A DNA stretch of 33,331 bases from an uncultured Sutterellaceae bacterium (GTDB lineage Bacteria > Pseudomonadota > Gammaproteobacteria > Burkholderiales > Burkholderiaceae_F): the NCBI GenBank assembly GCA_902797695.1, contig CADBTW010000099.1, forward strand, positions 1 to 33,331, read 5' to 3'. Made by a program: the position numbers and the translations under genes. Below are positions 4,625-29,801 of the stretch, piece after piece; position 1 is the stretch's first letter, and each line of letters starts with the position of its first letter. The notes below the pieces were generated by a model. That model was not told the DNA's origin, ran no database searches, and was given only the letters and a program-made list of their open reading frames with translations.

Positions 4625-7012
4625 TCAGGCCTTGCGGAACGTGTTGAGCGCGGAACCCGCGCGGAACCACGTGAGCTGCTTCTCGTTATAGCTGTGGGTG
4701 GCCTGGAACTCCTCGGTCTTCCCGTCCTCGTGCTTCAGGCGCACGGTGACGGTCTTCCCCGGAGCGAGCTTGTTGAGGCCGACAAAGGAGAGGCGATCCT
4801 TCTCCTGGATCCTGTCGTAGTCCTTCGGGTTCACAAAGGTGAGGACGAGGATGCCCTGCTTCTTCAGGTTCGACTCGTGGATGCGGGCGAGGCTCTTCGC
4901 GAGGACGACGGAGACGTTGAGGTAGCGCGGCTCCATGGCGGCGTGCTCGCGGGAGGAGCCTTCGCCGTAGTTGTCGTCGCCGACGATCACGGAGTGGATG
5001 CCCTTGTTCTTATAGAGCCTCGCGGTCTTCGCCGGGGTCTCGTAGTCGCTGTTCACGACGTTCCAGACGCTCTGGCTCTTGCCGTTGAAGGCGTTCACCG
5101 CGCGCGTGAGGAGGTTGTCCGAGATACGGTCGATGTTGCCGCGGTAGATCAGCCACTTGCCCCCCGGGCTGATGTGGTCGGTCGTGCACTTGCCGCGGAC
5201 CTTGATGAGGAGCGGAAGGTCGACGAAGTCCTTGCCGTCCCACTTCTCGAACGGCGTGAGGAGGCGGATGCGCTCGGCGTCAGGCGCGACCTTGATCTCG
5301 ACCTTCTTGAAGTCGGGGAGCTCGCAGCCCTTGATGCCCTTCGGGAAGCCCTTCGGAGGAAGCTCCTGCCCAGTCGGGGGAACGAGCTTGAAGCTCTGGC
5401 CGTTCTCGCCGACATAGCTGTTCTTCAGCGGGTTGAACGTCATGTCGCCTGCGGCGCCCATCGCGATCACCATCTCAGGGGAGGCGAGGAAGGCCTGGGT
5501 CTTCTTGCTCCCGTCGTTCCGGCCGGCGAAGTTGCGGTTGAAGGACTCGATGATCGTGTTCACCTGGGTCTTGTCGCCGATCGTGCGGTGCCACTGGCCG
5601 ATGCACGGGCCGCAGGCGGTCGTCATCGTCGTCGCGCCGAGCTTGTCGAAGACCTGGAGGATGCCGTCCCGCTTCAGCGTCTCGCGGATGCGGACGGAGC
5701 CCGGAACCACGATGAGCGGGGTCTTGTACTTGACGCCGTGGTCGACGAGCTGCTTCGCGATCGCGGCAGCGCGGGTGAAGTCCTCGTAGGAGGAGTTCGT
5801 GCAGGAGCCGACGAGCGCGACCTCGATATTGGTCGGAACGCCCTTCGCCTTCACCTTCTCGCCCACTTCGTCGATCTTCATCGCGGCGTCAGGCGTGACC
5901 GGGCCGTTGATGTAGGGGGTGAGTTCCGAGAGGTTGATCTCGACGATGCGGTCGTAGTACTTCTCGGGGTTCGCGAGAACCTCGGGGTCCGCGCGGAGGT
6001 CCTTCGCAACCCCGTCCGCGAGCTTCGCGACCGCGGCACGGTTCGTCGCCTTCAGGTAGCTCTTCATGTGGGAGTCGTACGGGAAGACCGAAGTGGTGGA
6101 GCCCATCTCGGCGCCCATGTTCCCGATCGTCGCCTTGCCGGTCGCGGAAAGGGTGTCGGCGCCGTCGCCGAAGTATTCGACGATGCAGTTCGTCGCGCCC
6201 TTCGTCGTGAGGATGCCGGCGAGCTTCAGGATGACGTCCTTCGGGCTCGCCCAGCCCTGGAGGTGCCCGGTGAGCTTCACGCCGATCAGCTTCGGCATCT
6301 TCAGCTCCCACTCGGTTCCCATCAGCGCGTCGACGAGGTCGGCGCCGCCGACGCCGATCGCGAGCATCCCGAGGCCGCAGGCGGTCGGGGTGTGGCTGTC
6401 GGTGACGAGCATCATGCCGCCCGGGAAGTCGTAGTTCTCGAGGAACACCTGGTGGCAGATCCCGGAGCCCGCGGGCCAGAAGTCAAGCCCGTAGCGGTGG
6501 GAGGCCGCGCGAAGAAAGTCGTACGTTTCCTTGTTGAACTGGTCGGCGACCTTGATGTCCTTCAGGGCGCCGGCGTTCGCGGTGACGAGGTGGTCGCAGA
6601 CCATCGCGGCCGGAAGCGCGATGCGGTCCTTGCCGGAAGCGAGGAACTGGATGATCGCCATCGGGCCGCCGATGTCGTGCGTGCCGGCGCGGTCCGGGCG
6701 GAACTCAGCGTATTCGACGCCGCGCTTGTAGCTCTTCAGCTGCTTCGGGTCGTAGAGATGCGTGTAGAGGATCTTTTCAGAAAGCGTGAGCGGGCGCCCG
6801 AGCTTCGCGCGGACCGCGGCGAGGCGCTTCGGATAGTTCCGGTAGAACGCCTGGATCATGTCGAAGTTGCGGATCTGGGACGCGGAGTCGGCGGAAGCCT
6901 TCTTCTGCTTCGCGGACACTGCGCCCGTAAATCCCATCGTGCTGACACCGGCCGCGCCGATCGCTGTATTCTTGAGAAGCGTGCGGCGGGAAACCTGGAA
7001 TGCCTTTTCCAT
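4625..7012 (-). CDS. Aconitate hydratase with Tat signal peptide
   Basis: A 795-aa aconitase (citrate-isocitrate isomerisation through cis-aconitate, [4Fe-4S] enzyme). The frame stays open further upstream, but ATG at 7012 is chosen because GGGAGAG lies about 10 bases before it. The protein then begins with a Tat signal: SRRTLLK at residues 8-14, a hydrophobic stretch, and AVSA near 31-34. The catalytic domain is intact: DSHTPT near 205-210, Fe-S cysteines at 404 (VGSCTNSS), 467 and 470 (TACGPCIG), and a swivel domain with GDDNYGEGSSREHAA. Aconitases are normally cytoplasmic; a Tat leader implies export of the folded Fe-S protein. The gene is divergent from a sensor-kinase gene. Enzyme family is very sure; export is inferred from the leader alone. 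Confidence 0.9.
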   Translation of the reverse strand: MEKAFQVSRRTLLKNTAIGAAGVSTMGFTGAVSAKQKKASADSASQIRNFDMIQAFYRNYPKRLAAVRAKLGRPLTLSEKILYTHLYDPKQLKSYKRGVEYAEFRPDRAGTHDIGGPMAIIQFLASGKDRIALPAAMVCDHLVTANAGALKDIKVADQFNKETYDFLRAASHRYGLDFWPAGSGICHQVFLENYDFPGGMMLVTDSHTPTACGLGMLAIGVGGADLVDALMGTEWELKMPKLIGVKLTGHLQGWASPKDVILKLAGILTTKGATNCIVEYFGDGADTLSATGKATIGNMGAEMGSTTSVFPYDSHMKSYLKATNRAAVAKLADGVAKDLRADPEVLANPEKYYDRIVEINLSELTPYINGPVTPDAAMKIDEVGEKVKAKGVPTNIEVALVGSCTNSSYEDFTRAAAIAKQLVDHGVKYKTPLIVVPGSVRIRETLKRDGILQVFDKLGATTMTTACGPCIGQWHRTIGDKTQVNTIIESFNRNFAGRNDGSKKTQAFLASPEMVIAMGAAGDMTFNPLKNSYVGENGQSFKLVPPTGQELPPKGFPKGIKGCELPDFKKVEIKVAPDAERIRLLTPFEKWDGKDFVDLPLLIKVRGKCTTDHISPGGKWLIYRGNIDRISDNLLTRAVNAFNGKSQSVWNVVNSDYETPAKTARLYKNKGIHSVIVGDDNYGEGSSREHAAMEPRYLNVSVVLAKSLARIHESNLKKQGILVLTFVNPKDYDRIQEKDRLSFVGLNKLAPGKTVTVRLKHEDGKTEEFQATHSYNEKQLTWFRAGSALNTFRKA

Positions 7013-7239
7013 TTTTCTTTTCTCTCCCGGGGCGAGCGAAGAATTCCAGTGCCTTTTCAGCTGAAAGCATGCCGGGTGGCAGCCCGGACAGGCTTCCGAC
7101 ACTTTCTCCGAAGCCCCTTTTTCAGGTATCTGTGACCCCGGAAACCGGTCGAAGCCCGGCCTTCCGGAACGGAAGGGATTCTTCACCCGCAGCACCACTA
7201 CGTAGTGTGCCGTCAGTCAAAGGAACGGCCTGAATACCC
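7013..7239. promoter_or_regulatory. Divergent promoter region with two palindromes
   Basis: This 227-base region separates the minus-strand aconitase from the plus-strand sensor kinase and must hold both promoters. Two unrelated perfect 12-bp palindromes stand out: TTTCAGCTGAAA at 7055-7066, near the aconitase start, and CACTACGTAGTG at 7196-7207, 32 bases before the kinase ATG. Either could be an operator for the neighbouring response regulator; this is inference. Confidence 0.45.
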
Positions 7240-9123
7240 ATGAAGAGGCAATTCTTTCGCAAAACCGCAGCCGGCATGCTGCTCTCCGCGATCTGCGCGA
7301 TCTGCGCGCTTTCCGCACCCGCCTCACATGCCGCGCCTGTTCGGCCGCTCCCCGCCGAGGCGGGTGACGTAAGGGTCGGGATCGTCGCCTTCACGAGTCC
7401 CTCGCCTTATGAAGAGATCATTCCGCAGACACTCGCCGTGCTCGGGGAGAAGCTTGGGAAATCCCGCATCGTCGTTCGCGAGTACACGCTCGCGGATCTC
7501 GCCGAAGCCGTGCAGGCGGGAAGCGTCGACGTGTTCATCGCGTCGGCGGGCTTCTACCGGAGCATGGTGCCGCACGGGGCGAACCGAATCGCGACCGTTT
7601 TCTCGCGCCTTCACCCGGATCCAAACCACGCGGTCGGGTCGGCGTTCATCGTGCGGGCTGATTCGCGCGCGAAAACCCTTGAGGACACGCGAGGACTGAC
7701 GCTCGGGGCCACTTCTCCCACGGCCTTCACGGGCTACCTGATCGGGCTCGGGGAGGTGGCGGACCGGTTCGGCGATCCGGACAAGTTCTTCGGAGGGACG
7801 AAGTTCTACGGCGGCGGAGCGGGCGCCGAAAAGGCGCTCGACGCGCTCCGGAAGGGCGAAGTCGGGGTCATTTCGCTCAGGAACTGCTGGCTCGAGCGCG
7901 AAGTGGAGACGCATCCGGAAGAGAAAGGCGAATTCCGCGTTCTCGACCCAAGGGGAACGGACGAGCCCTGCGCGCGCTCTACCGACCTCTACCCTTCCTG
8001 GACAATCGGCTCAAGCCCCGGCACCGCGCCCTGGATCTCGAAAGCGGTCACCTCGGCCGTCCTCGCGATGCCGGAGACCGAAGGCGGCTACAGCTGGGGC
8101 ATCGCGACCGACTTCCGGGCGGTGGACGAGCTCTTCAGGAAGCTCCGCGTCGGGCACTACGCCTACCTCCGCGAATGGTCGCTGACGCGATTCCTCGTCG
8201 CCTGGTGGCCCGCGCTCCTCATCGCCCTTCTCGTGGTCCTAGGCTCCGTCGCCCACGCGATCCGGACGGACAGGCTGGTGAAGCGCCGGACCGCCGAGCT
8301 CCGCAACGCGCTCAGGCTGCAGCAGGAGTTCGAGGCCCGGGCCCGCAGGGCGTCCGAAAAGGCGGCTTTCATCGAGAAGCTCGGCATCGTGGGCGAGCTC
8401 TGTTCGGTCTTCGCGCACGAAATGCGGCAGCCCCTCGGCGCGATCACGCTCTACGCTCAAGGGATGCGGAGCCTTATCCGACGGGGAAAGGCTTCCGGCC
8501 CCCAAATGGAGCGGGCGCTCGGGAAACTCGAGGAGCAGGCGGCCCGGGCGAGCGGCATCGTCGACCGGGTCCGAGCCTACGCCCGCGAGAAGGAGTTCGT
8601 GCGGAAGCGCTTCTCCCTCACCGCCACGGTTTCGGACGCGCTCGAAAACTATGAAGCTTCCGCTTCAGTCCGGGCGAAAATCACGCGGCACTTCGCGAAC
8701 GACGCCGTTCTCACGGGAGACCCTGTCGAAATCGGCCTTCTCGTCCACAATCTCGTGAAGAACGCCGCGGAGGCCGTGCAGGGGCGGCCGGACGGGGAAG
8801 TGCAGGTGACGGTCGCCTCAAGCGGCGGAACTGCTCTCCTCTCGGTCTCCGACAACGGCCCCGGGCTCAGCGCCGAAAGGCTCGCGGAACTCGAGTCGCC
8901 GAAAGCCTCGGTGAAGAGCGGCAAGCACGAGGGCCTCGGGCTCGGGCTCCTCATCGTGAAGGCGATCACTGAAAGGGCGGGCGGCCGGATCGAATTCAAG
9001 TCTGACGGCGTGAAAGGGGTCGCGGCTTACGTCTGGCTTCCAGTGCCTGCAGAGGAAGAACCACAGGAAGAATCGGAAACCCCGCAGGAAAGCATTGAAG
9101 AGAAGGAAGGGAAAAATGACTGA
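7240..9123 (+). CDS. TtrS-like sensor histidine kinase with PhnD-like periplasmic domain
   Basis: A 627-aa membrane sensor kinase. Residues 1-32 are a signal peptide. Residues about 43-305 are a PhnD/TtrS-type periplasmic binding domain (DVRVGIVAF, later ISLRNCWLERE and YPSWTIGSSP). One membrane segment spans about 319-340, followed by a short coiled coil and a DHp domain with the phospho-accepting His at 393 in FAHEMRQPLG. The ATPase domain has its N box (HNLVKNAAEA), G1 (DNGPGL) and G2 (GLGLGLLI). AAGGAACG precedes the start. The stop overlaps the response-regulator start by 8 bases, so the pair is translationally coupled. The architecture matches TtrS, the tetrathionate sensor, but no ttrABC genes are nearby, so the ligand is unknown. 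Confidence 0.88.
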   Translation: MKRQFFRKTAAGMLLSAICAICALSAPASHAAPVRPLPAEAGDVRVGIVAFTSPSPYEEIIPQTLAVLGEKLGKSRIVVREYTLADLAEAVQAGSVDVFIASAGFYRSMVPHGANRIATVFSRLHPDPNHAVGSAFIVRADSRAKTLEDTRGLTLGATSPTAFTGYLIGLGEVADRFGDPDKFFGGTKFYGGGAGAEKALDALRKGEVGVISLRNCWLEREVETHPEEKGEFRVLDPRGTDEPCARSTDLYPSWTIGSSPGTAPWISKAVTSAVLAMPETEGGYSWGIATDFRAVDELFRKLRVGHYAYLREWSLTRFLVAWWPALLIALLVVLGSVAHAIRTDRLVKRRTAELRNALRLQQEFEARARRASEKAAFIEKLGIVGELCSVFAHEMRQPLGAITLYAQGMRSLIRRGKASGPQMERALGKLEEQAARASGIVDRVRAYAREKEFVRKRFSLTATVSDALENYEASASVRAKITRHFANDAVLTGDPVEIGLLVHNLVKNAAEAVQGRPDGEVQVTVASSGGTALLSVSDNGPGLSAERLAELESPKASVKSGKHEGLGLGLLIVKAITERAGGRIEFKSDGVKGVAAYVWLPVPAEEEPQEESETPQESIEEKEGKND

Positions 9124-9745
9124 AGCAGCCGGGATTATTCCGGAATCCGTGAAGGAAAAATGCCTCATCCGGGCGGTGGACGACGACCCGGCGATGCGGG
9201 AAGCCCTCCAGTTCATGCTGGAAGCGGAAGGGTGGCGGGTAGATGTGTACCCGGGAGGGCGCGAGTTCCTCGCCGGGGACGCGCCGTCAGTCCCCGGGTG
9301 CGTGATCACCGACGTCCGGATGCCGGGCTTCTCGGGGCTCGAGCTCCAGCACGAGATGAACGTGCGGGGAATTGCCCTTCCCGTGATCTTCCTCACCGGG
9401 CACGGCGACATTGAAATGGCCGTTTCCGCGATGCAGGAGGGAGCGGTCGACTTCGTGCAGAAGCCGGTGAGCCAGGAGCGGCTTCTCGCCGCGATCGGTC
9501 GGGCCGTCCGCCGGAGCCTCGACGAGACCGGCACTGCGGCGACCGAGGCCGAAATGCGGGCGAAGGCTTCCCAGCTTACGGACCGGGAACGGGAAATCGC
9601 GCGGCTCATCGGCTCCGGGCTCACGAACCGGCAGATTTCCGAACGGACAGGAATCACGGTGAGGACGGTCGAAGTGCACCGTGCGGCGATCATCCGGAAG
9701 CTCGGAGTCCGGAAACCCGGCGAAATCGCGAAGTACCTCATCTAG
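9116..9745 (+). CDS. TtrR/FixJ-type LuxR-family response regulator
   Basis: A 209-aa response regulator. The receiver domain covers about residues 15-125, with the acidic pair in VDDDP, the phospho-acceptor Asp at 66 (VITDVRMPG), Thr in FLTGHGD and Lys in VQKPV. A LuxR-type helix-turn-helix fills about 143-209 (LTDREREIARLI, then ISERTGITVRTVEVHRA). The Met at 9116 follows AAGGAAGG and is preferred to an in-frame Met seven codons earlier. It is the cognate partner of the overlapping kinase. Likely targets are its own operon or the divergent aconitase gene; that is inference from position only. Confidence 0.88.
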   Translation: MTEAAGIIPESVKEKCLIRAVDDDPAMREALQFMLEAEGWRVDVYPGGREFLAGDAPSVPGCVITDVRMPGFSGLELQHEMNVRGIALPVIFLTGHGDIEMAVSAMQEGAVDFVQKPVSQERLLAAIGRAVRRSLDETGTAATEAEMRAKASQLTDREREIARLIGSGLTNRQISERTGITVRTVEVHRAAIIRKLGVRKPGEIAKYLI

Positions 9746-10499
9746 GACGGCCAAAGTGCAGGAATTGCCTTGGGCCCCGGATTCCAGCCGCATTCCAAAT
9801 TTGGACGAAGTTCTTAATCACGGTGAGTCCGAAGATTCCCACGATGACGGTAGAACTCGCATTTGCCCGCCCCCTGGACCGAGGGGGACTTCTAGCCTGT
9901 TTCGATATGGCTCGTTTAAAAAAGCGAGTCTTATCTTCCTGAAAGCTCGGGACTGCCGCTCCAAGATGAAAAGCGTGTGGGAGAGGAAACAGCGTCGAAC
10001 CCGCCCGAGCCTGCTGCTATTCCGATGGCAGCCTGACTTCCGGACTTGTCTGAGGCGCGGACCAGCTTCCCGCCCTCCTAGCCGAACTTCTTTTTGACTG
10101 AAGAATTCAATTCTATCAAAGGGTTCGAATGAAAATACTAAACATGTGAAAAAACAGCTTAAAAAGGCGTTAATTTTGTGATCCCATCCGGCAAAAAGTC
10201 ACCCCTCTATCAATAATATTGCATATAATTCAATGCGTTAACTTCATATCTTCATCCGGTCGCGCCCCTGCGCCGCGAAGGACAAGCTTTGAAGGTTTTT
10301 CTTCAGTTAGCTACCTTCATTGCCGTGAAATGGCAGTACGCCTGAGCGAAGCGGTTCAGGCAAGAAACTGATCCGATTGTCCGAAGTCGCTTCAACACCC
10401 TCCGATAGAATTTTCTTGAACGGCCGGCCTTTTGCGGCACAAACGAGGGCGGGGCGGCTACACAGGGAATTCTTTTTTCTCCTCGGACGGACAAGGATC
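9746..10499. other. Gene-free region upstream of phosphoesterase
   Basis: No convincing gene is seen in these 754 bases. A short hairpin CCCCCT/AGGGGG at 9870-9887 may help end the two-component transcript but lacks a T run. From about 10090 to 10260 base composition falls sharply to AT-rich, and 10131-10182 holds one copy of a 52-base block that recurs upstream of the DUF4143 ATPase gene. The last 120 bases are GC-rich again and lead into the phosphoesterase start. Confidence 0.4.
10131..10182 (+). repeat. Diverged 52-bp non-coding block, copy 1
   Basis: This block aligns without gaps to 14013-14064: 41 of 52 positions match by hand count, including an identical 13-base core TTAATTTTGTGAT at 10170-10182. 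Similarity extends weakly upstream (AATTC and ATCAAAG are shared). Here no gene starts shortly downstream; the next begins at 10500. It may be a leftover promoter region of a lost paralogue. Confidence 0.6.
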
Positions 10500-11729
10500 A
10501 TGGCTCTCGGAAGAAGGAAAGTTGTGGCTGGATTCGGTGTCGCCGCGGCGGCAGCCGCAGCGGGAGGGGCGCTCTTCCTGCACAGGAGGGATGAGGGTCG
10601 GATTGAGCGCGTCCGCCAGATCGTGGGGCCTGACAACGGCACTTCGCGCACGATCTGCTGGGAAGGCCCGCAGGGCGCAACGCTCGAGTTACGGTCGCCT
10701 GACGGATCGGTGAAGCGCTTCGCCTCCCGGAGCGTGGCCCACAAGTCGGGGAAGGAGCTCTTCCGCATCAACACGGTGCGGCTTGAAGGGCTTTCCCCCG
10801 CATCTTCCCATGCCTATCGGATCGAAGGCGGGAACCGGGAGTGGACTGAGTTCAGGACCGCCTCGCCCGAGACGCTCGAAGCCCTCGTCTTCCCCGACAG
10901 CCAGTCAACAGACCATTACGCGACCTGGAAACAGCTTTACGAAGGGGCGCTCCGGCGCCACCCAAAAGCCGACTTCACGGCTAACCTCGGGGACCTCGTC
11001 GACTGCGGAGCCTGGACCGGGCACTGGAAGGACTGGTTCGGAGCCGTCTCAGAAGGCATTTCCCGCCTTCCCATTGCCCCTGTCATGGGGAACCACGACA
11101 CTTACGACGAAAATGCCCGGATAGGAATGCCGGAAAACTACCTCGCCGCGTTTCCGGTCCCCGGGAACGGCAGCTCCGGGTGGGACCGCTGGTACTACGC
11201 CTTCGACTCGGGACCCGTGCGCTTTATCGTGCTTTCGACCGAGTGGCTTGAAAGCGACCACTTCCGCCCGGGGCTTCTTCCCGAAATGAAGGCGTGGTTC
11301 AAGGACGCCGCCAGGACCAATAAGCCCTGGAAGGTCGTGATGATGCATAGGAACACCGTGACGAACAACATCCGGGGGCGCCGCCCGTTCGATTCCCCCT
11401 TCTCCGAGATCGGCCGCGAGCTGATGCCGCTCTTCGACGCCGCCCGAGTGGACGCCGTCCTCTCGGGGCATCTCCACACGTACAGGAACCGCGGCCATAT
11501 CCGCGCCTTCATGCGGGATGAGTCGGGTCCCCTTTACATCATGAGCGGGGTCGCGGGGAACATCCGCTACAACAATTTCTGGATAGATTCCGCCTTCGAC
11601 CGCTTCATCGCGCCGCAACCCGAAACCGACAACTACATCGTGCTTTCCGCCAAACGGGATTCTCTTTCCGTTCGTTCGCATCTTCCGGACGGTTCCCTCA
11701 TGGACGAAACCGTGCTTCGGAAGACCTGA
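10500..11729 (+). CDS. Exported metallophosphoesterase (purple acid phosphatase-like)
   Basis: A 409-aa protein of the calcineurin-like phosphoesterase superfamily. The Met at 10500 follows AAGGA and gives an N-terminus with twin Arg (GRRKVV, residues 4-9) and an Ala-rich hydrophobic run, so a Tat or uncleaved membrane anchor is likely; the frame open upstream of it looks unreal. Residues about 38-130 resemble the beta-rich N-terminal domain of purple acid phosphatases. The metal-site motifs follow in order: FPDSQ, NLGDLVDCG, MGNHDT, MMHRNT and SGHLHTYRNRG. The family hydrolyses phosphomonoesters or diesters using a two-metal centre; substrate here is unknown. It stands alone, convergent with the cupin gene downstream. 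Confidence 0.8.
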   Translation: MALGRRKVVAGFGVAAAAAAAGGALFLHRRDEGRIERVRQIVGPDNGTSRTICWEGPQGATLELRSPDGSVKRFASRSVAHKSGKELFRINTVRLEGLSPASSHAYRIEGGNREWTEFRTASPETLEALVFPDSQSTDHYATWKQLYEGALRRHPKADFTANLGDLVDCGAWTGHWKDWFGAVSEGISRLPIAPVMGNHDTYDENARIGMPENYLAAFPVPGNGSSGWDRWYYAFDSGPVRFIVLSTEWLESDHFRPGLLPEMKAWFKDAARTNKPWKVVMMHRNTVTNNIRGRRPFDSPFSEIGRELMPLFDAARVDAVLSGHLHTYRNRGHIRAFMRDESGPLYIMSGVAGNIRYNNFWIDSAFDRFIAPQPETDNYIVLSAKRDSLSVRSHLPDGSLMDETVLRKT

Positions 11730-14126: not shown

Positions 14127-15479
14127 ATGTATCTGAACCGAAAATTTGACGATTATTTAGCCAGTTGGAAAAAGGACGAAAGCCGCCTTCCTCTTATCAT
14201 CCGAGGTGCAAGGCAGGTCGGGAAAACTGCTTCGGTCAGGCATTTTGCGAAGGGCCTTTACGAATCCTTCATCGAAATCAACTTCGTTGAAGAACCGCGT
14301 TACAAGCGAATTTTCTCTGACGGCTATGATGCAGCAAGCATCATTCGGAACATTTCATTCATCGATCCCGGGAAAAGATTCATCCCGGGGAAGACACTTA
14401 TTTTCTTCGACGAATTCCAAACCTGTCCTCAGGTTGCCACCTCCCTCAAGTTCTTCAAGGAAGACGGGCGATTTGACGTCATCTGCTCCGGGTCCCTGCT
14501 GGGAATCGGCTATCAGGAAATAGAAAGCGTTAGCGTCGGCCATAAATCCGACGTGGAGCTGAGGCCCTTTGACTTTGAGGAATTTCTTTGGGCAAACGGA
14601 TATGGCAGGGACATTGCGGACATCCTGCTCGAGCAGCTTGTCTCCGGAAAACCATTCACGGAAGCCGCCATGGCATCCCTGACTGAACGGTTCGGGGACT
14701 TCTTCGTCCTTGGAGGGATGCCCGCGGTGGTGAAGCAGTATCTGGAAAGAAAAACCTTTGAGGGTTCCCTTGGCCTTCAGAAGCAGATTCTGCTCGATTA
14801 CGAGGAAGATATCCAAAAATACCTTAATGGCCTTGAACGAACCCGCGTTCTCAGTGTCTTTCGCGCGATCGCGCCACAGCTCGCGAAGGAAAACAAAAAA
14901 TTTCAAATCTCGAAAGTTGCCAGAGGGGCGAGGCTACGGGAGTATTCAGGGTGCGTGGAATGGCTTGAAAAGGCGGGAATCGTCCTCCGCTGCAGTTGCC
15001 TTGATTTTCCCGAACTTCCCATCCGCGGCAATGTGAATCCCGACAAATTCAAACTCTATTTCCTGGATACAGGCCTTCTGATCGCCTCTCTCGACCCAGA
15101 GGCCCAGGATGATCTCAGGGCAAATCGCAACCTTGGCGTATATAAGGGAGCGCTCTACGAAAATTTCGCTGCTTCCGCCCTTGTCGCGCAGGGCCTCCCT
15201 CTCTGCTACTACAGAAAAGAGGATGGGCAGCTCGAAGAAGATTTCTTCGCAAGAACCGCCGACAGCCTTGTTCCAATTGAAGTCAAGGGAGGAAACGGAA
15301 AAGCAGAATCGCTCAGGGTTCTGATCCGCAATCCCCGGTATTCAGACATCCGTTTTGGAATCAAACTTTCCCGAAGGAATGTTGGCTTTGAAAACAATGT
15401 CTACACAATTCCTCTTTTCTGCGCGTTCCTTCTCCGGCGTTTCCTGAAAACCGCAGAAGGCAAGTTCCCCGAAAACTAG
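14127..15479 (+). CDS. ATP-binding protein, AAA + DUF4143 domains
   Basis: A 450-aa protein of the widespread AAA_14/DUF4143 group. Walker A is GARQVGKT at residues 27-34 and Walker B LIFFDEFQ at 91-98. The C-terminal DUF4143 half includes a nuclease-like EEDFFAR ... VPIEVKGG segment near 370-395 that resembles a PD-(D/E)XK core. The role of the family is unproven; it is patchily distributed, often multicopy and often found near mobile or defence genes. No clear Shine-Dalgarno precedes the ATG, but this start matches the usual family N-terminus. The gene is visibly less GC-rich than its neighbours, with many A/T third positions, which suggests recent acquisition. Confidence 0.85.
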   Translation: MYLNRKFDDYLASWKKDESRLPLIIRGARQVGKTASVRHFAKGLYESFIEINFVEEPRYKRIFSDGYDAASIIRNISFIDPGKRFIPGKTLIFFDEFQTCPQVATSLKFFKEDGRFDVICSGSLLGIGYQEIESVSVGHKSDVELRPFDFEEFLWANGYGRDIADILLEQLVSGKPFTEAAMASLTERFGDFFVLGGMPAVVKQYLERKTFEGSLGLQKQILLDYEEDIQKYLNGLERTRVLSVFRAIAPQLAKENKKFQISKVARGARLREYSGCVEWLEKAGIVLRCSCLDFPELPIRGNVNPDKFKLYFLDTGLLIASLDPEAQDDLRANRNLGVYKGALYENFAASALVAQGLPLCYYRKEDGQLEEDFFARTADSLVPIEVKGGNGKAESLRVLIRNPRYSDIRFGIKLSRRNVGFENNVYTIPLFCAFLLRRFLKTAEGKFPEN

Positions 15480-24737: not shown

Positions 24738-25937
24738 ATGCCTTACGTGCTTTCAGACAAGGTGCTCCCCGAATTCGCCGCCTGGGCGGACGAACTCGCA
24801 GCAATCCGCCACGAAGTCCACAAGACCCCGGAGCTCGGCTTTGATACCGAGCGAACGGTCTCCCGCATCCTGAAGCTTCTCGGGGAGTGGGGCGTGGAGA
24901 ACCCCGCCTCGACGACCGTCCCCGGCGGCGTGATCGCCGTGATCGTGGGCGAGCGCCCCGGGGCGACCATCGCGTTCCGAGCTGACATCGACGCGCTCCC
25001 GATGGACGACAAGAGCGGAAAGCCCTGGGCGAGCCTGATTCCGGGCCACGCCCACGCGTGCGGCCACGACGGCCACCAGACCTGGCTCCTCGGAACGGTC
25101 CGCTACCTTTCGCTCCACCGCGACTTCCCGGGCCGCGTCGTCGCGATCTTCCAGCCTGCGGAGGAAAACGTGAAGGGAGCGGACGCCATGATCGCGTCCG
25201 GGATCTTCGAAAAGTACGGCATCCGAGAAATCTATGGGGCGCATGACGAACCGAACCTTCCGAAGGGCGTCTTCGGGTTCCATCCCGGTCCCCTCCAGGC
25301 CTCTTCGGCGAACTTCTGGATCACGGTGAAGGGTGCCGGCACCCACGGCGGCCGCCCGCATCTCGGAACCGACCCGATCCCGGCCGGCGCCCTGCTCGTC
25401 TCGGCGCTCCAGACGATCGTCTCCCGGAAGGTCGATCCGATCGAGCCCGCTGTCCTCAGCATCTGCTCGATCAACGCCGGGCGGTTCGAGGCTCCGAACG
25501 TGATCCCCGGGGAACTCACGCTGAGCGGCACGATCCGCACCTATTCGGACGAGGTCCAGAAGCAGATCATCACGCTGCTTCGCGAGATGTGCGCGGATGT
25601 CGCGAAGAGCGAGGGCTGCACGGTCGATGTGAAGATCGAGAACGGCGCGAAGTCTGTCCTGAACGACCCCGAGCGCACGAAAAAGGCCGCCGCGGTTGCC
25701 GCGAACCTCTTCGGCCCGGAGCATGTCGCCGACCTGAAGCCCTTCATGAGCTCGGAAGACTTCGGAAGCTACCAGAGGATCGTCCCCGGCGTCATGATGC
25801 GGGTCGGAATCCGCGACGAGTCCCACGTGTCCGGCGTCCACAGCCCGAACTTCGACTTCAATGACGAGGTCCTTCCCGCTGCCTGCACGCTGTTCGCGAC
25901 GATCATCCGCACGAGGCTTGAAGAGCTCGCGGGCTAG
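24738..25937 (+). CDS. M20-family amidohydrolase, second of a tandem pair
   Basis: Also 399 aa, with the same domain plan as its upstream neighbour and extensive identity (ELGFDTE, RADIDALPM, HACGHDGHQTWLLG, GVFGFHPGP, DFNDEVLPAACTL). Differences cluster near the active site: HDEPNLPKG instead of HDDPYLPKG, and GVHSPNFDFND instead of PLHSTAFDFND, so the two copies may have different acyl or amino-acid preference. TGGAGG precedes the start. The operon ends at a strong terminator after this gene. Best read as a duplication followed by divergence. Confidence 0.87.
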   Translation: MPYVLSDKVLPEFAAWADELAAIRHEVHKTPELGFDTERTVSRILKLLGEWGVENPASTTVPGGVIAVIVGERPGATIAFRADIDALPMDDKSGKPWASLIPGHAHACGHDGHQTWLLGTVRYLSLHRDFPGRVVAIFQPAEENVKGADAMIASGIFEKYGIREIYGAHDEPNLPKGVFGFHPGPLQASSANFWITVKGAGTHGGRPHLGTDPIPAGALLVSALQTIVSRKVDPIEPAVLSICSINAGRFEAPNVIPGELTLSGTIRTYSDEVQKQIITLLREMCADVAKSEGCTVDVKIENGAKSVLNDPERTKKAAAVAANLFGPEHVADLKPFMSSEDFGSYQRIVPGVMMRVGIRDESHVSGVHSPNFDFNDEVLPAACTLFATIIRTRLEELAG

Positions 25938-25971: not shown

Positions 25972-26006
25972 GCCCAGGCTCCTTTCAACGGGAGCCTGGG
26001 CTTTTT
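25972..26006 (+). terminator. Rho-independent terminator of the M20 pair
   Basis: An 11-bp perfect stem (GCCCAGGCTCC at 25972-25982 with GGAGCCTGGGC at 25991-26001) and eight-base loop are followed by TTTTT at 26002-26006. Confidence 0.93.
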
Positions 26007-26026
26007 GCTTTTCCGTGCCGCCTGAT

Positions 26027-26848
26027 GCAACGTCTGCCGTACCCTGCCGCCCTCCCACGGTACGCTTGACGTTATATCAGGAAGCAACACCTGCCAGATG
26101 CTTCAGGGGCTTTCCCACGCCAGTCCGCGCGCATTAAATTTCATTAAAAAAAACAATTAATTAGAAAATTACCCCAGAAGCAACGGATACCGTACCAGAA
26201 CCGTAGCCCGGCCTGTCTCAGCGGGGAAAGAAGGTGCAGCGGAGACCGTACCCCGTGGGACAGATTCCGGCAACCGGATGAACTCGGGCTGGCATTAATA
26301 GATTTGTATATTTTTCCAATAAATTTTAATGAATTTCTATTATTTTTTAAAACATCAGAAAGTGCTCTTTCCCGCAATTTCCTGGGAAAGAAAACCAAGG
26401 CGCCGCTGTGTGCCGGAGTACTGGTGCAACGCGTTCCGTACCTTTGGGATACGCCTGCCGTCCGTGAAGCCGGATTCACTTCTCAATATAAAAACTCCGG
26501 AAAATCAATGGCTTTTAACAAGCGCCGAACGCCTTTCTGGCCATCGGCTGATCATCTGTTGCAACGGGAACCGTACCCGGGATCCCCGTTCCTGACGATT
26601 CCCCTCACGACCGCGGCGCAGTCTTCGGGCCTGGATCCGGCAGATGCAACGTTCACCGTACCCATTAACAGGGAGTACATTGTGAAGGGCCCGGATGAAC
26701 TGATAAATTGATTCTATTAATTTTTACATAGAATCTATTTGTTAATCAGAAGATATCGCGTTGGGCTCCAGATCGCTTTACTTGAATAAAGCCGCCGGAG
26801 GGCAGGGAGAAGATCCGCGAGGCGAGCTGGAATAACGTTTCCCGTACC
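26027..26848 (+). repeat. Cluster of GCAACG-N4-CCGTACC sites
   Basis: Five exact matches to GCAACG-N4-CCGTACC occur at 26027-26043, 26180-26196, 26426-26442, 26561-26577 and 26646-26662, all on the plus strand. Degenerate copies follow the same pattern: 26236-26252 (one mismatch), 26832-26848 (two mismatches) and an inverted copy at 26059-26075 (three mismatches). The base before the core is usually T. Flanks and the four central bases differ in every copy, so these are conserved sites, not duplicated blocks. Spacings (153, 56, 190, 135, 85 and 186 bases) are irregular and not all multiples of three. The core has partial dyad symmetry (ACG-N5-CGT). I saw no copy elsewhere in the window. Confidence 0.85.
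26710..26735. repeat. AT-rich inverted repeat
   Basis: GATTCTAT (26710-26717) and ATAGAATC (26728-26735) form a perfect 8-bp stem around a 10-base loop within the third AT-rich tract of the gene-free region. It could be a cruciform, a protein site or part of a small transcript. Confidence 0.5.
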
Positions 26849-27129
26849 TGAACGCAGAACTTGCCAGTGCCGTGGCCGAAATCCTCCTGCCCCCAAAGCC
26901 GCCATGGACTGGAAGGATTCGCATCGGCCATTCCAGAACGCTCCGGTTCGGACTGACAACAGCCATGCCTGGGAAGGGCATGAGGCCGTGATGCAGCTCG
27001 AAAGCCCTAAGATCCCCGGAAATTCCCTGACGAAGACAGGCAAAAGAGCCAACCGTCCGACCGATGACCTCGCGCAGGACGAGACCCGTTCCTCGTTTTT
27101 CGCACTGGTGCGGATTTCCCGATCACACA

Positions 27130-27226: not shown

Positions 27227-28627
27227 TTACATCTGGAACTTCGGGGCGATGAGGTTCTGGAAGGAGAATACCTGATTCCACTGGTCTTCCGTCATCAGCT
27301 TGCGCTCGTCGACGACGATCTGGTGGAGGGACTTGCCCTGGGTATAGCCTTCCTTCGCCATCTCGGCGCAGAGCATGTAGCCGAAGTGCGGCTTCAGCAG
27401 CGTGACGATGCCGAGGGAGTTCATGACGTAGTTCTTCGTGCGTTCGGCGTTGACCGTGATGCCGTCAACGCACTTCTCGCGAAGGGCGATCATCGCGTTG
27501 GTGACAGCCTTCATCATCGTGAAGACGGCGAAGGAGATCACCGGCTCCATCACGTTCAGCTCGAGCTGGCCGGCGGAAGCAGCAAGCATCACGGTCGTGT
27601 CGAGGCCGATCGCAAGGAAGCAGGCCTGGTTCGTGACTTCCGGCATGACGGGGTTGACCTTGCCCGGCATGATGGAGGAACCCGGCTGGCGCATCGGGAG
27701 GTTAAGTTCGGCAAGGCCGCAGCGCGGGCCGGAGGCGAGCAGACGGATGTCGTTGCAGACCTTGGTCAGCTTGACGGCGAGGCTCTTAACGGCGGAAGAA
27801 ATGGCGACGTAAGCGCCGCAGTCGCTCGTCGCGGCGATCAGGTCGTCGCTGTTGTGGAAGTCAATGCCGGTCTGCTCAGCGAGGTACTTGACAGCCTTCG
27901 CCGGGTAGTCGGGGTGGCAGGTGACCGTCGTGCCGATCGCGGTGCCGCCAAGGTTGATCACGCGGAGATGCTTCTGGGCGTCGCGGATCGTTTCGATTTC
28001 GTCCTCGATCGTGCGGCCCCAGCCGTGGAACTCCTGGCCCATGCTCATCGGGACAGCGTCCTGCAGGTGGGTGCGGCCCATCTTCAGCACGCCCTTGAAC
28101 TCATCCGCCTTCTTGTAGAAGGAAGCAACGAGCTTCTCGAGAGCGGCGACGAGGTCCTCGGACCGGTAGTACATCGCGAGATGCAGGGCGGTCGGATACG
28201 TGTCGTTCGTGGACTGGCCGAAGTTCGCGTGGTCGTTCGGGGAGACCTGCTTCTGGGAACCCTTCGGGAGGCCGAGCTTCTCGCAGGCGATGGAGCAGAT
28301 CACTTCGTTCGTGTTCATGTTGGTCGAAGTGCCGGCACCGCCCTGAAGCCAGTCGGTCACGAACTGGTCACGGTACTTTCCGGCGATCAGCTCATCGCAG
28401 GCGGCGATCAGCGCGTCAGCGACGTTCGCGGGAACCGTTCCGAGTTCCTTGTTCGCACGGGCAGCCGCCTTCTTCACCTGGGCAAAGGCCTTGATGAAGT
28501 ATTCGTCCTCATTCATCGAACGCTCGGTGATGTGGAAATTTTCCTTGCCGCGGAGGCTCTGGACGCCGTAGTAGACGTCATCCGGAATCTCAAGATCGCC
28601 AAGGAAATCGTGCTCGATACGTGACAT
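27227..28627 (-). CDS. aspA: Aspartate ammonia-lyase
   Basis: A 466-aa cytoplasmic enzyme of the aspartase/fumarase superfamily that converts L-aspartate to fumarate and ammonia. The three conserved regions are present: GGAGTSTNMNTNEV (96-109), MGRTHLQDAVPMSMGQEF (183-200) and the mobile SS loop GSSIMPGKVNPVMPE (316-330) with catalytic Ser318. The N-terminus IEHDFLGDLEIPDDVYYGVQ and the LQGGAGTS form are those of aspartases rather than class II fumarases, though a fumarase cannot be wholly excluded. It is divergent from a LysR gene, a common regulator arrangement. Fumarate made here could serve as a respiratory acceptor. Confidence 0.88.
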   Translation of the reverse strand: MSRIEHDFLGDLEIPDDVYYGVQSLRGKENFHITERSMNEDEYFIKAFAQVKKAAARANKELGTVPANVADALIAACDELIAGKYRDQFVTDWLQGGAGTSTNMNTNEVICSIACEKLGLPKGSQKQVSPNDHANFGQSTNDTYPTALHLAMYYRSEDLVAALEKLVASFYKKADEFKGVLKMGRTHLQDAVPMSMGQEFHGWGRTIEDEIETIRDAQKHLRVINLGGTAIGTTVTCHPDYPAKAVKYLAEQTGIDFHNSDDLIAATSDCGAYVAISSAVKSLAVKLTKVCNDIRLLASGPRCGLAELNLPMRQPGSSIMPGKVNPVMPEVTNQACFLAIGLDTTVMLAASAGQLELNVMEPVISFAVFTMMKAVTNAMIALREKCVDGITVNAERTKNYVMNSLGIVTLLKPHFGYMLCAEMAKEGYTQGKSLHQIVVDERKLMTEDQWNQVFSFQNLIAPKFQM

Positions 28628-28763
28628 CAGACAAATCCTCCGAGATTTCTCTCTTTTATCGCAGGGGAGCTGTTTTATCAGTTCCCGGCATCAGATGAAA
28701 ACAAAACTCTTGAAGCAACAGCCGGACGACTGCTAATGCAATCTACCTAGCTGCTTAGGCAAA

Positions 28764-28792
28764 ATTATCTATGTCAAAATTGATGCAGTAAA
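28764..28792 (-). promoter_or_regulatory. Putative aspA promoter
   Basis: On the minus strand TTTACT (28792-28787) and GATAAT (28769-28764) are separated by exactly 17 bases, about 137 bases before the aspA start and within the aspA-LysR intergenic region. A CCTA-N6-TAGG inverted repeat lies just downstream of it near 28746-28759. The LysR regulator could bind here. Confidence 0.5.
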
Positions 28793-28841
28793 GGCTTATC
28801 ATGTTCGCTAGAAAATCATTTTTGATCACAAGAGGCCGATC

Positions 28842-29801
28842 ATGAGAAAGACCGAGAACCTCGACAATCTTCGCGTCTTCTGCACGATCGTGAAATCGGG
28901 AAGCGTGCGCGCGGCAAGCATGCAGCTGAACACCGAGACAAGCAACGCCTTCCGCACGGTGCGGCAGCTGGAGTCCGAGCTTGGCGTGCAGCTTTTCGAC
29001 CGGAAGGCGCGGCCGATGAAGCTCACGCGCCAGGGCGAACAGTTCTACGAATACTCAAGGCGCCTCCTCAAGCTTCACCGGGAAATGCTGTCCGAGATCA
29101 GGGACGACACGGAATCCCTCAGCGGCCGCATCCGGATCTCATCCACCGCAGGGTTCCGTCAGGCCTTCCTCACGCCGGCGCTCGTCGAGTTCCAGATGGA
29201 GAATCCGGACATTGTCCTCGACCTGAAGGAAATGACGACCGGGGTGAGCGATGTGCTCGGAGCGGCGAGCGAGCGCGGAAGCGACATCGCCCTCACCTAT
29301 ATGCCGAAGGACGGCGTGCCAGCCGGGGTGGAAGTGAGGGAATGCGGCGAAATGCCCTTCATCTCCTGCACTTCGTCCGTCTACCTGAAGCGGTACGGCG
29401 CTCCGGCATCCCCTGCCGAGTGCGCGAACCACATCGGCGTCCTCCTCGCGCTCCCGAACCGCAGCTCGGTTTCCTTTCTCTCGAAGGATGGCGTCACCGA
29501 AAAGCTTTCATGGCGCCGGACGATGTCCTTCAACAGCCAGATCAACGCCCGCGACGCGATGCTTCTAGGCGCCGGGATCATTCCCGACCTCGCCTTCTAT
29601 TTCGCAACCAAGGGAATCCGGAATGGCCAGATCGTGCAGGTGATGCCAGGCTGGACAATCCCCACACGAATCGGCTGCCTCTTCGCGACCGAATCCGCCT
29701 ACAGGAAGAAGCGCGTCAGGTTCTTCATGGACTGGCTGGAGAAGCGCTTCACCAAGATCCTTGACGAAACCTGCGCGGCTTACCGGGATTTCATCCGCTA
29801 G
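28842..29801 (+). CDS. LysR-family transcriptional regulator (divergent from aspA)
   Basis: A 319-aa LTTR. The N-terminal helix-turn-helix covers about residues 6-64 (LDNLRVFCTIVKSGSVRAASMQLN, then FRTVRQLESELGVQLFDRKARPMKLT), followed by the linker helix and an effector-binding domain from about residue 92. It is transcribed away from aspA across 214 bases, so aspA regulation by this protein is the first hypothesis. The effector domain shows no signature that identifies the ligand. Its stop overlaps the stop of the convergent transporter gene (shared CTAG at 29798-29801). Confidence 0.88.
   Translation: MRKTENLDNLRVFCTIVKSGSVRAASMQLNTETSNAFRTVRQLESELGVQLFDRKARPMKLTRQGEQFYEYSRRLLKLHREMLSEIRDDTESLSGRIRISSTAGFRQAFLTPALVEFQMENPDIVLDLKEMTTGVSDVLGAASERGSDIALTYMPKDGVPAGVEVRECGEMPFISCTSSVYLKRYGAPASPAECANHIGVLLALPNRSSVSFLSKDGVTEKLSWRRTMSFNSQINARDAMLLGAGIIPDLAFYFATKGIRNGQIVQVMPGWTIPTRIGCLFATESAYRKKRVRFFMDWLEKRFTKILDETCAAYRDFIR

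Follow-up and report, generated by a model that had tools for sequence, protein, structure and literature searches.

A cluster of near-exact sites between two convergent genes

Which protein reads a dense cluster of short sites lying in a gap between two convergent genes? The cluster belongs to a stretch of 33,331 nucleotides, called the window throughout, from the genome of an uncultured Sutterellaceae bacterium of the genus Mesosutterella. Between positions 26027 and 26848, GCAACG-N4-CCGTACC occurs as five exact and two degenerate forward copies and one inverted copy, all recovered where a preliminary description, made from the letters of the window alone, had placed them. We scored the sites with a matrix whose 45 training sites came from two relatives and none from the window. 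The exact copies are site 1 (26027 to 26043, GCAACGTCTGCCGTACC, 23.7 bits), site 3 (26180 to 26196, GCAACGGATACCGTACC, 23.5 bits, with an AT-rich tract just before it), site 5 (26426 to 26442, GCAACGCGTTCCGTACC, 15.7 bits), site 6 (26561 to 26577, GCAACGGGAACCGTACC, 21.4 bits), and site 7 (26646 to 26662, GCAACGTTCACCGTACC, 24.6 bits). These lie on the forward strand, as do the degenerate site 4 (26236 to 26252, GCAGCGGAGACCGTACC, one mismatch, 14.1 bits) and site 8 (26832 to 26848, ATAACGTTTCCCGTACC). Site 8 has two mismatches to the GCAACG form, carries the window's top score (24.9 bits), and is identical to the commonest form at the relatives' origins. The inverted site 2 (26059 to 26075, reverse strand, ATAACGTCAAGCGTACC), with three mismatches to GCAACG-N4-CCGTACC, had been called weak, which it is not, because it reaches 22.7 bits with the relatives' matrix. 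Three AT-rich tracts are interspersed, at 26127 to 26180 (45-bp segments of at least 80% A+T), 26289 to 26370 (80 to 91%), and 26694 to 26757 (80 to 84%).

Across the entire window, the relatives' matrix returned seven sites that reach 15 bits, plus the one of 14.1 bits, all within 26023 to 26851, and no site above 10 bits outside the array. Dinucleotide shuffles of the array region gave a mean of 0.0005 hits of 15 bits (maximum of 1 in 2,000 shuffles), and shuffles of the whole window gave a mean of 0.03 (maximum of 1 in 100). The signal resides in clustered exact and near-exact copies, since the count at up to three mismatches over the whole window (15, against a shuffle mean of 11.3) shows no excess, while every exact copy and the single-mismatch copy fall within 26027 to 26848. 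Start-to-start spacing is irregular (33 to 190 bp), and a repeat search found no longer unit shared between sites beyond 27 bp at 67 to 81% identity, which bears out the earlier remark that the copies are irregularly spaced and do not share their flanks. Their description as dyad-like holds in part: a dyad is present, but it is weak (ACG-N5-CGT).

The gap is bounded on the left by a gene for an M20-family peptidase (24738 to 25937, forward strand, PF01546 and PF07687) and on the right by one for a fumarase/aspartase-type lyase (27227 to 28627, reverse strand, PF00206 and PF10415). Each neighbor had been credited with a terminator. That of the upstream gene is an intrinsic terminator at 25972 to 26001 on the forward strand (a 12-pair stem with a T-run), whereas the downstream one was recognized by visual inspection and is absent from the list produced by the terminator scan. 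The gap does look gene-free, as had been proposed: eight open reading frames of 61 to 147 amino acids from the gap, of which the final two extend into the lyase gene, had no Pfam match at an E value of 0.01, and those of at least 100 amino acids gave no tblastn hit at 1e-20 on the contigs of two relatives. An Rfam scan of the window returned no match at gathering scores, so the suggestion that the sites act on a small RNA finds no backing from a known RNA. Promoter control by the array was rejected, with two overlapping promoter-like matches at 26323 to 26351 against 0.8 expected.

The motif in the rest of the genome

The assembly that contains the window is a 2.31-Mb draft of 104 contigs, 94% complete. 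It holds the exact motif 12 times: five times in the window, four times in a repeat on contig C34, and three times elsewhere. Of 18 copies of the core AACG-N4-CCGTAC, the window holds six and the C34 repeat four, and the other eight are scattered; a reversed control occurs seven times, so that the scattered single motifs are near background. Among six scattered places that were checked (C9, C34:9849, C52, C70, C84, and C102), five lie within open reading frames and one, C70:19311, lies between divergent frames. A matrix scan of other loci in this genome cannot serve as a control, as these loci were picked for having a match. Since the scattered copies are single and five of the six are within frames, the window holds the sole intergenic array found in the assembly. 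The four exact copies at C34 17266 to 17873 are 180 to 231 bp apart in repetitive, coding-looking sequence and are coincidental or independent occurrences. A coding repeat, rejected as an explanation of the window array, may apply to these C34 copies.

Motif arrays surround a Rep_3 gene in Mesosutterella

We compared the window with four relatives forming two pairs, G002 with G003 (M. multiformis) and G001 with G004 (M. porci). In a scan of the five genomes of the genus, including the window's own, clustered exact copies of the GCAACG form were found in two of the four relatives; in the four taken together, the motif mostly reads ATAACG-N4-CCGTACC. One cluster comprises about 20 copies of related sequence, and an initiator-like gene follows it directly. 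A Rep3_N gene is present once in each relative, and motif arrays surround it in all four. The shorter form TAACG-N4-CCGTACC occurs 8, 32, 34, and 6 times in the four genomes, always on the contig that carries this rep gene, and at most once per genome outside the genus (62 of 67 family genomes). The window's genome has four copies of it, one of which is site 8. Six other Sutterellaceae Rep_3 loci have repeats that, where present, differ from the Mesosutterella motif. The first two bases diverge: GC stands there in six of the eight window sites, AT in most of the relatives' iterons. In G003, 8 of the 48 sites have the GCAACG form, with four of these at the core and two in satellites, and G001 shows it at none of its 12. 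The preliminary description had held that a tight cluster near an origin, in this genome or in related Sutterellaceae, would support a structural role, and the relatives have such clusters. Its broader view of the copies as selected protein-binding sites stands insofar as the relatives point to a replication protein, which was one of the options it named; that this protein is likely a Rep_3 initiator, and the second replicon, had escaped it.

Both Rep proteins that were scanned matched PF01051 (Rep3_N, WH1) and PF21205 (Rep3_C, WH2) above the cut-off. A profile of the four Rep sequences matched solved plasmid initiators (best E value, 4.5e-10), such as F RepE, R6K pi, and pPS10 RepA. Among the matches listed, RepM proteins of Acinetobacter and Psychrobacter plasmids share about 28 to 30% identity with the G004 protein. 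A structure prediction for Rep had low confidence (mean pLDDT, 54.3), and no reading given here rests on it. A viral origin of Rep was rejected, as two peptide patterns from the Rep alignment retrieved no IMG/VR relative; a further IMG/VR pattern scan was uninformative, as the 80 rows listed, of at least 120, had one match each.

Origin layout and a probable second replicon in the relatives

DnaA boxes of the sequence TTATCCACA lie at the array in all four relatives. The 232-kb contig C2 of G001 has two copies, both at the origin array; contig C2 of G003 (702 kb) has five, two of them at the array; and G002 and G004 have two each at theirs. A four-iteron layout was established for G001, G002, and G003. 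The G001 core runs from TTATCCACA through an AT-rich stretch to four iteron-like repeats 22 to 23 bp apart, of which two are degenerate. G003 has this unit of TTATCCACA, AT-rich stretch, and four iterons twice, about 300 bp apart, and the first iteron of each set has the GCAACG form; G002 likewise has an AT-rich tract followed by four iterons 22 to 23 bp apart, present twice. The relatives' origins resemble those of Rep_3 iteron plasmids such as F (RepE), R6K (pi), pPS10 (RepA), and the RepM plasmids of Acinetobacter: a WH1-WH2 initiator (Rep3_N plus Rep3_C), direct tandem iterons of about 22 bp, DnaA boxes, and an AT-rich tract. They differ in scale: the replicon measures 232 to about 659 kb, and in G003 the sites occupy a field of some 13 kb, with satellites 20 to 60 kb away. 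The window cluster differs further in having no rep gene.

On C2 of G001, the cumulative GC skew reaches its minimum 3.4 kb from rep (block-shuffle P = 0.007). On C2 of G003, the minimum is 22 kb from rep, none of 5,000 shuffles reached the observed range, and a second, shallower minimum is found near 540 kb. In all four relatives, the best DnaA match (dnaA) is on a contig other than the rep contig. This separation is most telling for G001 and G003, which have three and two contigs, and weak for G002 and G004, which are drafts of 7 and 30 contigs. A parA gene lies beside rep in all four; that of the M. porci second replicon (G004:C23 120376 to 121044) has one internal TGA and is perhaps a broken gene or the product of a sequencing error. 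On C2 of G003 (701,885 bp), positions 1 to 28320 recur at 659006 to 687321 with 99.6% identity, 3 mismatches, and 103 gap openings, which suggests that a circle of about 659 kb was assembled from long reads and left untrimmed; we consider a genuine duplication less likely. No end overlap was found in C2 of G001. There are no tRNA genes on C2 of G003 and one on C2 of G001. A plasmid-type rep and parA on these two large contigs, apart from dnaA, is one of the marks of a chromid. The M. multiformis genome announcement reports two contigs and does not call the second a replicon, and the accessible part of the M. faecium genome paper describes a single circular chromosome of 2,606,253 bp.

Arrays flanking Rep_3, DnaA boxes, parA, a contig distinct from that of dnaA, the GC-skew minima of two contigs, and the circular appearance of one make it most likely that the motif serves as iteron for a second replicon of plasmid type in Mesosutterella. 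Two further features of these contigs were noted. The iteron field on C2 of G003 contains a transposase gene, assigned by Pfam to the Mutator family, in two copies at 113954 to 115222 and 119417 to 120685; one of them lies between rep and parA. Contigs C1 and C2 of G001 contain, besides dnaA, eleven weaker DnaA-domain matches in frames of 183 to 287 amino acids, which are probably transposon helper ATPases present in several copies.

Conserved iteron positions and satellite clusters

To compare the iterons with their surroundings, we defined the fixed iteron positions in one species of each pair and read them in its sister, over five stretches (four from G002/G003 and one from G001/G004; one stretch is the better of two BLAST blocks, covering 822 of 1,468 bases). 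Iteron positions were identical in the sister at 109 of 110, 109 of 110, 79 of 80, 20 of 20, and 89 of 90 bases (98.8 to 100%), compared with 86.5, 77.0, 82.2, 83.1, and 75.3% in the rest of the same stretches, respectively. The difference was significant in four of the five stretches (Fisher P < 1e-4) and had a P value of 0.059 in the satellite stretch.

Iterons are also found away from the origin. Of 48 sites of at least 15 bits in G003, 36 lie at 108 to 121 kb (31 of these on the rep strand) and 12 elsewhere, with origin-external clusters at 63 to 65 kb and at 133 kb. The latter satellite (132965 to 133404) occupies a convergent gap, between genes for a nitrate reductase gamma subunit and an AraC regulator, as the window array does. 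G002 has motif copies at distances similar to those in G003. Because all 12 sites of at least 15 bits in G001 are at the origin and none is outside it, satellites are known from one close pair, G002 and G003. At the place in G003 that corresponds to the window, there is no array, and one site lies inside a gene at 161916.

Replicon assignment of the window

Window positions 4625 to 9745 (aconitase, sensor kinase, and regulator) have their best match in each of the four relatives on the rep contig; the aconitase is 80 to 82% identical to the rep-contig copies, and the counterpart segment on C2 of G003 is at 167 to 173 kb, about 55 to 60 kb from rep. The M20 gene has its best match on the rep contig in three of the four (G001, G003, and G004; 68 to 71%), with extra copies on other contigs in G001 and G004. 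The gene at 10377 to 11729 has matches on non-rep contigs in G001 and G004. The lyase is 92% identical at the amino acid level on C2 of G003, and its DNA is 85 to 87% identical to non-rep-contig copies in all four relatives, compared with 78 to 79% for the rep-contig copies that G002 and G003 also have. The right half of the window therefore maps ambiguously between replicons. On balance, these matches favor a window that would be part of the second replicon. Genes that moved from one replicon to the other, or replicons that fused in the window's species, are a possible explanation of the mixed mapping.

Two other observations concern gene content. In G002 and G003, the rep contig carries the pair formed by the lyase and a LysR gene (27227 to 29801), whereas in G001 and G004 the pair resides on another contig; with the closest lyase off the rep contig, this distribution hints at exchange between replicons. 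At 14127 to 15479, a gene for an AAA_14/DUF4143 ATPase lies in a low-GC stretch (about 50%, in a window of mostly 60 to 65% GC) and was possibly acquired.

A putative satellite cluster for a Rep_3 initiator

We give somewhat more credence than doubt to the reading that the window array is a satellite iteron cluster for a Rep_3 initiator, which would restrain a plasmid-derived second replicon by titration or handcuffing. The array is associated with Rep_3 by way of the relatives only, because the assembly of the window's genome has no Rep3_N gene and no second parA; a chromosomal ParA is retained on contig C79, where dnaA lies about 8 kb away. The missing pair fits the absence of an origin contig and also a lost origin. 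A repeat-rich origin contig could be missing from a draft of 104 contigs.

In this species, the candidate initiator would bind the eight window sites. The array itself would not fire: there is no DnaA box, no set of iterons phased at 22 bp, and no rep gene, and with these other origin parts missing, firing at the array is unlikely. By keeping the initiator off the origin, the array would lower initiation (titration), and it may also pair with the origin iterons through Rep (handcuffing); by analogy with chromosome II of Vibrio cholerae, described below, it should do both. Passage of the replication fork would double the sites and could help prevent a second round, in the manner of datA. A wider scheme, which we put forward tentatively and regard as doubtful in its full form, is that Mesosutterella counts its initiator in a distributed way, with an origin field and intergenic satellites acting as a sink that is doubled by the fork and permits firing once per cycle, the window array being one such counter. 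Tens of iterons are available for counting of this kind, for instance 48 in G003.

Relation to known replication systems

The closest parallel is chromosome II of Vibrio cholerae. There, five iterons and a 39-mer occupy a 74-kb stretch at a distance of about 40 kb from the origin (PMC3937223); that paper and PMC6090056 describe the distant iterons as binding and titrating RctB and inhibiting replication, without origin activity. A cloned fragment of the origin-external sites had no origin function, and a strain deleted for one of these sites grew without a phenotype (PMC3937223), so that the effects of satellites may be subtle. The likeness consists in sites that are external to the origin, on a second replicon, and homologous to the origin iterons. 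The differences are a Rep_3 initiator in place of RctB, a 17-bp site without GATC, and a higher density, with eight sites in 0.8 kb in the window and 48 sites of at least 15 bits in G003. Escherichia coli datA, as portrayed in PMC3937223, is likewise a titration-type cluster of initiator sites off the origin; unlike the predicted window array, datA binds DnaA and promotes ATP hydrolysis, an activity not known for the array.

Among the papers listed by a literature search, in a coverage that most subscription papers fall outside, none is on a second replicon in Sutterella or Mesosutterella by its title, and none, by title or the start of the abstract, on chromosome-scale Rep_3 control of the satellite-counting kind. 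The components belong to known types, and what differs here is the initiator family, the host group, and the site density. What emerges is a second replicon that gut bacteria of this genus likely share, not described as such in the accessible text of two Mesosutterella genome papers. A Rep_3 system would offer independent ground for the idea, studied in Vibrio, that satellite sites tame the plasmid origin of a large replicon, and the motif provides a sequence tag for spotting the second replicon in draft genomes.

Alternative explanations of the array

Among the alternatives, the one that survives best, although we consider it unlikely, is that the second replicon has been lost or fused, that rep and parA are gone, and that the array is a decaying piece of the old origin field. 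It would account for the missing rep and second parA in an assembly that is 94% complete, for a window that mixes genes found on rep and non-rep contigs in the relatives, and for the unphased sites. Decay sits poorly with five sites that keep all 13 fixed bases amid unrepeated intervening sequence, and the fragmented draft could simply have missed the origin contig.

Less probable again is a centromere of type Ib partition, in which the sites would be read by a small ribbon-helix-helix (RHH) partner of ParA that segregates the second replicon. The motif is found upstream of parA as well, which makes a partition role possible: all 12 G001 sites, and many in G003, are between rep and parA. In G001 and G003, one from each lineage, parA is followed by a gene for a small RHH-like protein; the two proteins are 33% identical over 66 residues, and their Pfam matches are weak and below the cut-off. 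RHH partition proteins usually bind shorter subsites, whereas the site here is 17 bp and nearly nonpalindromic, and its arrangement in fours at 22 to 23 bp with DnaA boxes, an AT-rich tract, and rep is that of iterons.

We see little probability that the array is the working origin of the species' second replicon, with rep encoded elsewhere. Its eight sites, three AT-rich tracts, and a local change in the sign of the GC skew would suit an origin, but the window has no TTATNCACA box (one TTTTTCACA is found at 10145), the contig has no rep gene over 26 kb to the left and 6.5 kb to the right of the array, the sites form no 22-bp phased set, and the cumulative skew of the window has no clear minimum there. 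Least probable of all is that the sites belong to an unrelated regulator or arose by chance and resemble iterons by accident, as might be argued from a GC form that is two bases off most of the relatives' iterons, since the window contains seven sites of at least 15 bits where 0.03 is expected.
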